The position numbers and the translations under genes are program-made. This document shows positions 11,606-14,221 of a stretch of DNA of 64,000 bases, piece after piece. Below the pieces are notes generated by a model. That model saw only the letters and a list, made by a program, of their open reading frames with translations. It searched no databases and had not been told where the DNA came from. This stretch comes from Bdellovibrio bacteriovorus (GTDB lineage: Bacteria; Bdellovibrionota; Bdellovibrionia; Bdellovibrionales; Bdellovibrionaceae), in assembly GCF_001592735.1 (NCBI RefSeq), contig NZ_LUKE01000001.1, positions 1,585,018 to 1,649,017 on the forward strand, read 5' to 3'. The number at the start of each line of letters is the position of its first letter. Positions within the stretch are counted from its first letter, which is position 1.

Positions 11606-11828
11606 TTCCTCAGCATGGCTAAGCGTATTATTTACTGTGTTTCGTGCCTCTTTTTTAACCTCAAATCCACGTAATGCGATTTGAAGTCCTTTTTTCGGAT
11701 TAAAGCTTTGTACATATCTAAAAGTCGGATTTTGTGGTTTATTGCCGCCAAATTAAGTCGTTCACGTAGTTCATTAGATGTCCTTTTGTCTTCTGCGAAT
11801 GGCCCCCAAGCTTTCATAGGAGGCTCTC
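11606..11828 (+). other. Long leader region of the RRM gene, no convincing gene
   Basis: About 220 bases separate the rpoD terminator from the RRM protein start. A 61-codon open frame exists on the minus strand (11632-11817) but has no ribosome site. On the plus strand only the AGGAGG box at the end is clear. The length would allow a regulated 5' leader, as seen for cold-induced RNA-binding protein genes, but no conserved motif is recognised. Confidence 0.4.
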
Positions 11829-12149
11829 ATGGGAAAAAAACTTTACGTTGGTAACCTTTCTTACAGTGTTGATTCAGAACAATTAGGTTCTGTATTTGCT
11901 GAAGTTGGTAACGTTGATTCAGCAAACATCATCACAGATCGCGAAACGGGTCGCAGCAAAGGTTTCGGATTCGTAGAAATGGCTACTGATGCTTTGGCAT
12001 TAGATGCTATCTCTAAATTGAACGGTTACGAGCTTGGCGGTCGCGCTATGAACGTATCTGAAGCTAAACCACAAGAACCTCGCACTGGTGGCGGTGGTCC
12101 TCGTCGTGGTGGTGGCGGTTTCGGTGGCGGCGGATCTCGTCGTTACTAA
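11829..12149 (+). CDS. RRM-type RNA-binding protein with glycine-rich tail
   Basis: A 106-residue protein made of a single RNA recognition motif and a Gly/Arg tail. RNP2 is LYVGNLSYSV near residue 4 and RNP1 is KGFGFVEM near residue 45. The C-terminal 25 residues are almost wholly Gly and Arg. Such proteins resemble cyanobacterial Rbp and eukaryotic glycine-rich RNA-binding proteins, are often cold-induced and bind single-stranded RNA. AGGAGG sits six bases before ATG, and its own terminator follows, so it is a single-gene unit. Confidence 0.95.
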   Translation: MGKKLYVGNLSYSVDSEQLGSVFAEVGNVDSANIITDRETGRSKGFGFVEMATDALALDAISKLNGYELGGRAMNVSEAKPQEPRTGGGGPRRGGGGFGGGGSRRY

Positions 12150-12175: not shown

Positions 12176-12207
12176 AAGCCGACCCCTTAAAAGGTCGGCT
12201 TTTTTAT
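12176..12207 (+). terminator. Rho-independent terminator after RRM gene
   Basis: AAGCCGACC pairs with GGTCGGCTT across an eight-base loop and is followed by TTTTTATTTT. Confidence 0.92.
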
Positions 12208-12249
12208 TTTTGTAGTTGACCCAAGCACGGGGCTTTTTAAGCTTAACCT

Positions 12250-12753
12250 ATGAAGAAAAATATCTTTCAAATCATTGCGGTGGCTTTGGCATTCACTTTC
12301 TTGCAAGCATGTTCTCCAGGTGGCGGACTTGTCGCAAATAAAAGAGACGCAGAATTTTATAATCAGTTCGTAAATCCAACAAGCGACTGGCCTCAGGCAG
12401 AAAGCCGCGTGGCAGAACTTAAAGTTTTACAAATCAATGACGTCTACAATATGCGCTTTGCCCTTTTTGAAAATGGCAAAGTCTATTATCAGATTGATCG
12501 TTTGGGGAATGGCAACGGTACGTGGGTATATGAAAACGGAGCGATGAGCATCACCGCAACGCGCCCGATCTTTGATATGGAACTGACTTTTTCTGCTGCC
12601 GAAAAAGTGGGTGATAAAACGGTGGTCCGCTTTGTAGATCGATATGGATTTAACTCTGCTCCCGTTATCTTTAGAAATCCTGAAGCTTTAAAAAGCAAAG
12701 GTGTGAAGCCTGAGACTTTAAAAGAGTTTAAGGCTTCAGATAAAAATATCTAA
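12250..12753 (+). CDS. Hypothetical lipoprotein
   Basis: A 167-residue protein with a lipoprotein signal peptide: a basic start, a hydrophobic core and the lipobox LQAC with the lipidated cysteine at about residue 21. The mature part looks rich in beta strands, with no metal or catalytic motif that I recognise. It ends five bases before the alpha/beta hydrolase gene, so both are probably co-transcribed and act in or at the envelope. Function unknown. Confidence 0.8.
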   Translation: MKKNIFQIIAVALAFTFLQACSPGGGLVANKRDAEFYNQFVNPTSDWPQAESRVAELKVLQINDVYNMRFALFENGKVYYQIDRLGNGNGTWVYENGAMSITATRPIFDMELTFSAAEKVGDKTVVRFVDRYGFNSAPVIFRNPEALKSKGVKPETLKEFKASDKNI

Positions 12754-12758
12754 GCGCG

Positions 12759-13559
12759 ATGATTTGGTTGTGGGCGTTACTTCGCATTTTTTTAGTAGTT
12801 ATCGTTGTCGCTACCGCGGCAATTTACTTCTTTCAAGAGCGCGTGATTTTTTATCCTTATAAGTTGCCGGCAGATTTCAAATTCAATTTTAAAAATCCAT
12901 CCACAGAAAAAATTCTTAAAGTCGGTAAATCTGATATTCACAGTCTGTACTTTGAAGCTAAGGATGCTCCGGGTGTGATCGTGTACTTTCATGGTAACGC
13001 GGGGTCTTTAGAAGGTTGGGGAGAACTTGCTAGCGACTTTGTCGACCAAACTGGTTGGAATATTTGGATGGTGGATTACCCGGGATATGGCAAAAGCACG
13101 GGGCACATTACTTCAGAAGCCCAGTTGCATGAAGTGGCGGATGCGGTTTTTGCAGAAGCTGTAAAACTAAACCCGGGTAAAAAGGTCGTTATTTACGGAA
13201 GATCTTTGGGATCGGGGATTGCAAGTAGTCTTGCAACAAAAACCACGATTGATGGTTTGGTGTTAGAAACGCCATTTTATAATGTTGAAGCGATGGCGAA
13301 AAATATTTTTCCGTTCGTTCCGGGTTTTTTAGTTCGTTACAAGTTGGCTTCTAATGAAAGCATGAAATCTATCAAAGTCCCAGTCTTAGTGATTCATGGA
13401 ACGGCAGATGAAATTGTCCCCTTTGCTCAAGGCAAAAAGCTCTATGACGAATATCAAGGGCCAAAGACTTTCATGGAAATCCAAGGCGGGGACCACAACA
13501 ACTTAGACAGCATGGATAAATTCTGGCCTGCGGTGAAGCAGTTTTTGAAATCTATTTAA
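12759..13559 (+). CDS. Membrane-anchored alpha/beta hydrolase, BEM46/YfhR-like
   Basis: A 266-residue serine hydrolase. Residues 1-25 form a hydrophobic anchor (IFLVVIVVATAAIYFF). The hydrolase domain shows the oxyanion loop YFHGNAGS, VDYPGYGKS, the nucleophile elbow GRSLGSG, the acid in HGTADEIVPF and the catalytic histidine in GGDHNN. The BEM46 family is widespread and its substrates are mostly unknown. The ATG follows the lipoprotein gene by five bases with only a weak ribosome site. The domain probably faces the periplasm, inferred from the single N-terminal anchor. Confidence 0.88.
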   Translation: MIWLWALLRIFLVVIVVATAAIYFFQERVIFYPYKLPADFKFNFKNPSTEKILKVGKSDIHSLYFEAKDAPGVIVYFHGNAGSLEGWGELASDFVDQTGWNIWMVDYPGYGKSTGHITSEAQLHEVADAVFAEAVKLNPGKKVVIYGRSLGSGIASSLATKTTIDGLVLETPFYNVEAMAKNIFPFVPGFLVRYKLASNESMKSIKVPVLVIHGTADEIVPFAQGKKLYDEYQGPKTFMEIQGGDHNNLDSMDKFWPAVKQFLKSI

Positions 13560-13574
13560 GGATTTACGGATCAG

Positions 13575-13714
13575 GCTTTGAATAATCCCCAGACCTTCTG
13601 TTCTCTATCCAGCGACGTTCGATATGGCGACTCTTTTGGCTATATTCCGACGCTGGGGGTATCTAAATCCCCCATCCTGTGTTCTACTGGATCCATCAGC
13701 ATGGAGTTTAAAGC
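13575..13714 (+). ncRNA. Candidate structured RNA or leader upstream of infA
   Basis: This gene-free stretch can fold extensively. GCTTTGAAT (13575-13583) pairs with GTTTAAAGC (13706-13714) as an outer stem, ATCCAG (13607-13612) with CTGGAT (13687-13692), and ATATGGC (13622-13628) with GCTATAT (13639-13645). The G-rich strand at 13651-13659 has three competing partners: CCAGCG (13609-13614), CCCCAG (13587-13592) and CCCCC (13669-13673). Such alternatives are typical of switching leaders. A terminator and then the infA start follow. I recognise no known riboswitch, 6S or SRP motif. It may be a leader, a small RNA or a dispersed repeat. Confidence 0.45.
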
Positions 13715-13758
13715 GCACCATTCTTACTAAATTATTTGTTTTAATACTTAACGATTGC

Positions 13759-13792
13759 AAAAGCCGTCTTTAAAGGGCGGCTTTTTGTTTTT
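13759..13792 (+). terminator. Rho-independent terminator 17 bases before infA
   Basis: AAAAGCCGTC pairs with GGGCGGCTTTT across a short loop, followed by TGTTTTT. It ends just before the infA ribosome site, so it either ends a small RNA or attenuates infA. Confidence 0.85.
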
Positions 13793-13808
13793 AAAAGAAG
13801 GAGTTCCG

Positions 13809-14030
13809 ATGGCAAAAGACGATCTGGTCACCGTAGAGGGAAAGGTTTTTGATTTGTCGGGCGGTGGGACTTATTCAATCACTCTTGAAAATGGGGTGGC
13901 CGTGAAGGCGCGCCTGTGCGGCAAGATGAAAAAGTTCAACATTAAGGTTGTAGTTGGGGACCGAGTGAGCGTCGGGGTTTCTCCTTACGATCCGACTCAT
14001 GGTCTTATTCTTCACAGGCATAAATTTTAA
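13809..14030 (+). CDS. infA: Translation initiation factor IF-1
   Basis: A 73-residue S1/OB-fold protein matching IF-1 (usual length 72): VTVEGKVFDLSGGGTYSI, a central basic KARLCGKMKK, then VVVGDRVSVGVSPYD. IF-1 occupies the ribosomal A site during initiation. The frame is open further upstream but that part runs through a terminator hairpin. ATG 13809 with GGAG seven bases before it and the family length fix the start. Its stop overlaps the next ATG by one base. Confidence 0.93.
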   Translation: MAKDDLVTVEGKVFDLSGGGTYSITLENGVAVKARLCGKMKKFNIKVVVGDRVSVGVSPYDPTHGLILHRHKF

Positions 14031-14221
14031 TGTCTAATAAACGATGCCCCAACATGAATCACGGGAAAAGCAATCCCGGGGTCAAATTTTGTCCCAATTG
14101 CGGTGAGAAGTTTGCGGCTTTTACCGGTGCCAAGGTCTGCACAGTAGAACGGCACCGCGACCAGCGTAAATCCGGTGGCCATTACTGCTATGACTGCGGA
14201 AAAAACCTGCGGGCCACATAG
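14030..14221 (+). CDS. Small zinc-ribbon-like protein
   Basis: A 63-residue basic protein with two CxxC pairs (CPNCGEKF near residue 22 and CYDCGKNL near residue 53) plus further cysteines and histidines at the N terminus and centre, enough to bind one or two zinc ions. It starts on the infA stop (TAATG), so it is translationally coupled to infA. Small cysteine-rich proteins of this kind often bind nucleic acid or ribosomes, but no family is recognised. Confidence 0.8.
   Translation: MSNKRCPNMNHGKSNPGVKFCPNCGEKFAAFTGAKVCTVERHRDQRKSGGHYCYDCGKNLRAT

Follow-up and report, generated by a model that had tools for sequence, protein, structure and literature searches.

A second infA gene of Bdellovibrio bacteriovorus is preceded by a promoter-like element of the rrm type and an intrinsic terminator

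The stretch of Bdellovibrio bacteriovorus DNA analysed here (the window; 64,000 nucleotides, contig NZ_LUKE01000001.1 of assembly GCF_001592735.1, positions 1,585,018 to 1,649,017) carries the divergent copy of the two infA genes in this genome, which encodes a paralogue of initiation factor IF-1 and is followed by a gene for a small zinc-ribbon-like protein (Table 1). A zinc-ribbon-like gene also lies 3' of infA in three other genomes (G013, G014 and G015). The same infA paralogue is present in 20 other species of the genus, and in 19 of the 21 species it stands directly behind an rrm gene, the products of which are RRM RNA-binding proteins of about 100–120 residues with a glycine-rich tail. 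The window also has an rrm gene, with its own terminator, but unlike the rrm–infA pairs of its relatives (loci L044–L063) it has two genes between rrm and infA. Intervening genes were found in this genome only, and the full-length relatives of the hydrolase in eight species adjoin neither rrm nor infA. Outside the genus the rrm–infA pair persists, and at three such loci (L152, L165 and L167) the rrm stop codon overlaps the infA start, which suggests translational coupling. The persistence of the pair beyond the genus, in some cases with this overlap, indicates that the rrm–infA operon is probably old.

Table 1. Features between the rrm gene and the second infA gene, in positions of the window.
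Feature	Position	Strand	Remarks
Two-box element before the rrm gene	11715..11743	+	2 mismatches
Conserved rrm leader	11745..11828	+	Covariance model R1, 90 bits
rrm gene, RRM RNA-binding protein	11829..12149	+	106 aa; Pfam RRM_1, 5.3e-21
Intrinsic terminator after rrm	12176..12208	+	
Two genes separating rrm from infA	12250..13559	+	167 aa, unknown; 266 aa, alpha/beta hydrolase
Local hairpin (from the earlier note)	13608..13657	+	Non-conserved; upstream of the promoter-like element
TTCGATATGG	13618..13627	+	Similar to TTCGATCTGA, a block semi-conserved ahead of rrm promoters (leader alignment)
Two-box promoter-like element TATCTA-N12-TGTGTTCTACT	13660..13688	+	Exact match to the rrm-gene consensus
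CACCATTCTTACTAA, possible rrm 3'-end remnant	13716..13730	+	HHSY-stop here, RRSY-stop in relatives
Intrinsic terminator before infA	13759..13792	+	G+C-rich stem followed by a T-run
Ribosome-binding site of infA, AAGGAG	13798..13803	+	From sequence
Second (divergent) infA, IF-1 paralogue	13809..14030	+	73 aa
Zinc-ribbon-like protein	14030..14221	+	63 aa; overlaps the infA stop

From the hydrolase stop at 13559 to the infA ATG at 13809 runs a 249-base intergenic stretch, in which an earlier note on this DNA had described a gene-free, switch-like structured region that could be an attenuator, a new small RNA or a dispersed repeat. The region is indeed gene-free: no credible gene lies within 13560–13808, and small open reading frames at 13578–13730 on the forward strand and 13605–13760 on the reverse strand had no match in Pfam. 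A dispersed repeat is excluded, since the full sequence was matched only once in the genome. The Rfam scan that the note had asked for returned nothing at the gathering level for the infA leader region, and the weak matches below that level mostly track the terminator. By DNA comparison, none of 65 further Bdellovibrionaceae genomes showed a stretch homologous to the infA leader; within the genus the terminator alone was matched, and across the family the similarity amounted to short matches.

The terminator that had been reported shortly before infA is real. It consists of a 12-pair stem (13759–13785) and a T-run to 13792, 16 bases ahead of the ATG, and when folded alone it has a z value of -2.4. 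An intrinsic terminator also lies between rrm and infA in 12 of 20 relatives, where the stem ends 17–31 bases ahead of infA. The terminator is a common trait of the rrm–infA pair, and no special device of this genome; its presence here and in these relatives makes an attenuation-like arrangement plausible.

Upstream of the terminator lies an element that is shared with the rrm genes. The alignment of rrm leaders contains the pattern TTTGG-N3-TATCTA-N12-TGTG(T/G)TCTACT about 110 bases (108–116) 5' of the rrm start codon, and in the relatives a conserved leader (alignment A1) comes next and runs for about 75 bases as far as the ribosome-binding site. The copy on the infA side matches without mismatch, with 17 bases from TATCTA to TCTACT, and is the sole exact site in the genome; it stands 149 bases ahead of the infA ATG, outside the range of the rrm genes. 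A third genomic copy precedes an rrm paralogue elsewhere (L108), while a match at a further gene (L114) was rejected as apparently due to chance. Across 19 aligned sites, which take in the infA site of the window, TATCT is invariant, the second box is nearly invariant, and the 12-base spacer is fixed in length with an information content near zero. Constant spacing around a random spacer sequence fits promoter boxes, or another DNA site bound by protein, and not paired RNA. From these patterns we infer that the element is a promoter of the rrm type. The semi-conserved block upstream of the rrm promoters, which has a look-alike here, differs among species in its distance to the boxes.

The same features could be explained if the element were an operator for a transcription factor of the rrm genes, the promoter lying elsewhere and the terminator serving to end the hydrolase transcript. 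Fixed spacing and near-invariant boxes suit a protein-bound site of this kind equally well, and both boxes are far from the sigma-70 consensus. However, in relatives the element stands about 110 bases 5' of the start codon and immediately ahead of the conserved leader, as would be expected of a promoter, and no further pair of conserved boxes resembling a promoter came to light. We regard an operator as an unlikely explanation.

The reading that we prefer, with a probability of about two in three, is that the infA region descends by rearrangement from part of an ancestral rrm–infA operon, with its own rrm-type promoter, a terminator, and read-through to infA. Transcription of infA would begin at the rrm-type promoter copy that lies before it, probably near 13695, so that the outer stem and the hairpin of the earlier note would lie mostly upstream, outside the RNA made from the element. 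The RNA would cross about 100 bases, passing the possible rrm remnant and then the rrm-type terminator, where many transcripts would end; a fraction presumably reads through to yield infA and the zinc-ribbon gene. The output of infA would thus be the product of promoter activity and read-through, as in relatives with infA behind the rrm terminator, in which infA would also be expressed by read-through unless a promoter overlaps the terminator. The RNA from 13695 to the terminator is predicted to be unstructured, the segment 13695–13758 folding no better than its shuffles (z = 0.66).

Within this transcript, CACCATTCTTACTAA is similar to the rrm 3' ends of relatives, which read CGCCGTTCTTACTAA and encode RRSY before the stop. 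Of 2000 shuffled sequences, 8 gave a stop-anchored match as good, as did 5 of 1989 pieces taken at random from the window (about 0.3%); the likeness, over about 15 bases, is suggestive of derivation from an rrm 3' end, and is not proof. The simplest history would be that a second copy of promoter, rrm, terminator and infA arose, and that rrm was then deleted between promoter and terminator. No closer relative was found that preserves an intermediate of this history intact. In genome G007, the element and the rrm leader stand directly on infA, with rrm absent between them (L055, 1388–1500; L195), and infA directly behind an rrm promoter has been seen in two species.

The structure attributed to the region fared less well. 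The fold of the whole region had a z value of -1.55, with 11 of 200 shuffles equally good, and that of 13574–13700 a z value of only -0.79, both at the level of chance or barely better. For the G-rich strand CGCTGGGGG (13651–13659), said to have three mutually exclusive partners, the complementary segments are present, but the pattern is within chance, as 19 of 300 shuffled sequences contained some 9-mer with three partners. The sole notable fold is the local hairpin at 13608–13657, with a z value of -3.66 at the place as chosen; when the place was left free, 5 of 200 shuffles held a 54-base segment as stable. It was not kept in the aligned leaders of relatives. Because the hairpin and most of the outer stem lie upstream of the promoter-like element, they would belong to promoter DNA rather than to leader RNA. 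A stability somewhat above chance is nevertheless a point against the operon-piece reading, which gives the hairpin no role.

That stability, together with a terminator ahead of infA, would suit a cis-acting attenuator, in which an RNA starting near 13570 controls infA by switching among the hairpin, pairings of GCTGGGGG, and the terminator. Against this, no upstream pairing partner was found for the terminator stem, the three-partner pattern is not rare, the stem is unconserved in relatives, and the conserved boxes behave as DNA. Neither a conserved aptamer nor a competing anti-terminator was seen in the infA region, which has no match in Rfam and no conserved upstream structure. Of the attenuator proposed earlier, the terminator and its counterparts in relatives stand, and with them a plausible attenuation-like layout, but a structured or switching RNA is unsupported, and we consider such a device very improbable. 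A dedicated small RNA of about 100 bases, starting near 13695 from a promoter of its own and ending at a terminator of its own (13792), is more improbable still: it would be suitably flanked by the promoter-like element and the terminator, but its body is unstructured, it was not found in the 65 other family genomes, and it would arise anyway as the stopped infA leader, so that a short terminated RNA from the infA-side promoter is possible and would be a by-product. Most likely, then, the region before infA is largely ordinary, and a new RNA switch there is unlikely.

If there is any switch in the neighbourhood, it is more likely to be the rrm leader than the infA leader. The covariance model R1 had a match in 37 of 66 Bdellovibrionaceae genomes, and in the 27 cases with a readable downstream gene the leader precedes rrm 26 times and infA once; no Rfam family matched the copy in the window (11745–11828). 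Ahead of the window's infA, the model gave 5.6 bits (E = 1.7) at 13723–13808, which is not significant. A helix GUCGUUC/GAAUGGC is paired in 98.6% of alignment cells, with one compensatory double change, and scores far above slid versions of itself; its margin over column shuffles is slight, 23–30 of 500 equalling it, and its covariation is weakly supported. In a second possible pairing, UUUGUCUUCU would bind AGGAGGCAAA at the ribosome-binding site; it is kept in 90.6%, but without any double change its covariation is nil and the pairing is unsupported. Among rrm paralogues, those at L123, L130–L132, L134–L137, L139, L140 and L144 have other conserved-looking leaders, of the forms GTCTCTCTTGAGT...GGGCATAGTGCC... 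and CCCGTGTGAGTG...TTCGAAGGCTTCCTCGGG, suggesting that RRM genes carry several leader classes, with at least two other types.

We can postulate, as a tentative and rather doubtful extension, that in Bdellovibrionaceae an RRM protein and the infA paralogue are controlled together through an undescribed class of promoter and an undescribed leader RNA, which may sense temperature or a protein by means of the GUCGUUC/GAAUGGC helix or, alternatively, of UUUUGUCUUC pairing at the ribosome-binding site, and that the window's infA kept the promoter and lost the leader.

The earlier premise that IF-1 is not usually controlled through a leader is incomplete. In E. coli, IF1 is cold-induced via one of two infA promoters, P1 and P2, and the longer transcript from the cold-activated promoter is preferentially translated (PMC6511841). 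The likeness to the present locus lies in a promoter that gives a longer leader; neither an RRM neighbour nor a leader terminator is described for the E. coli gene, and cold induction was shown there, not here (PMC6511841). A cyanobacterium requires a similar RRM protein for cold adaptability, and cyanobacterial genes of this kind carry conserved cold-response boxes in the 5' UTR (PMC9333190). These share with the Bdellovibrio genes an RRM protein with a glycine-rich tail and a conserved leader, a likeness at the level of description (PMC9333190). The window's infA leader is without the rrm leader. The closest parallels are the rrm–infA pairs of other Bdellovibrio species (L044–L063), which have the same infA paralogue, the promoter-like element, and a terminator of the same kind just before infA; in the window, infA differs in having a copy of the element to itself, and the rrm leader is lacking there. 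A two-box promoter class is known in the genus from B. bacteriovorus, whose FliA promoters in the attack phase have the consensus TTAAG-N16-CCGATA (PMC3627812), but TATCTA and TCTACT do not match that consensus. The start sites published for B. bacteriovorus come solely from the attack phase (PMC3627812).

Any part that the locus plays in cold adaptation would be a guess based on what the genes do. The supposed switch at infA was a false lead, and in its place the analysis puts a picture open to test, of a second IF-1 of Bdellovibrio tied to an RRM protein, together with a promoter-like element and an rrm leader, both conserved, and often a terminator between the two genes. If this picture is true, RNA-binding proteins and the initiation of translation would be connected in a predatory bacterium.
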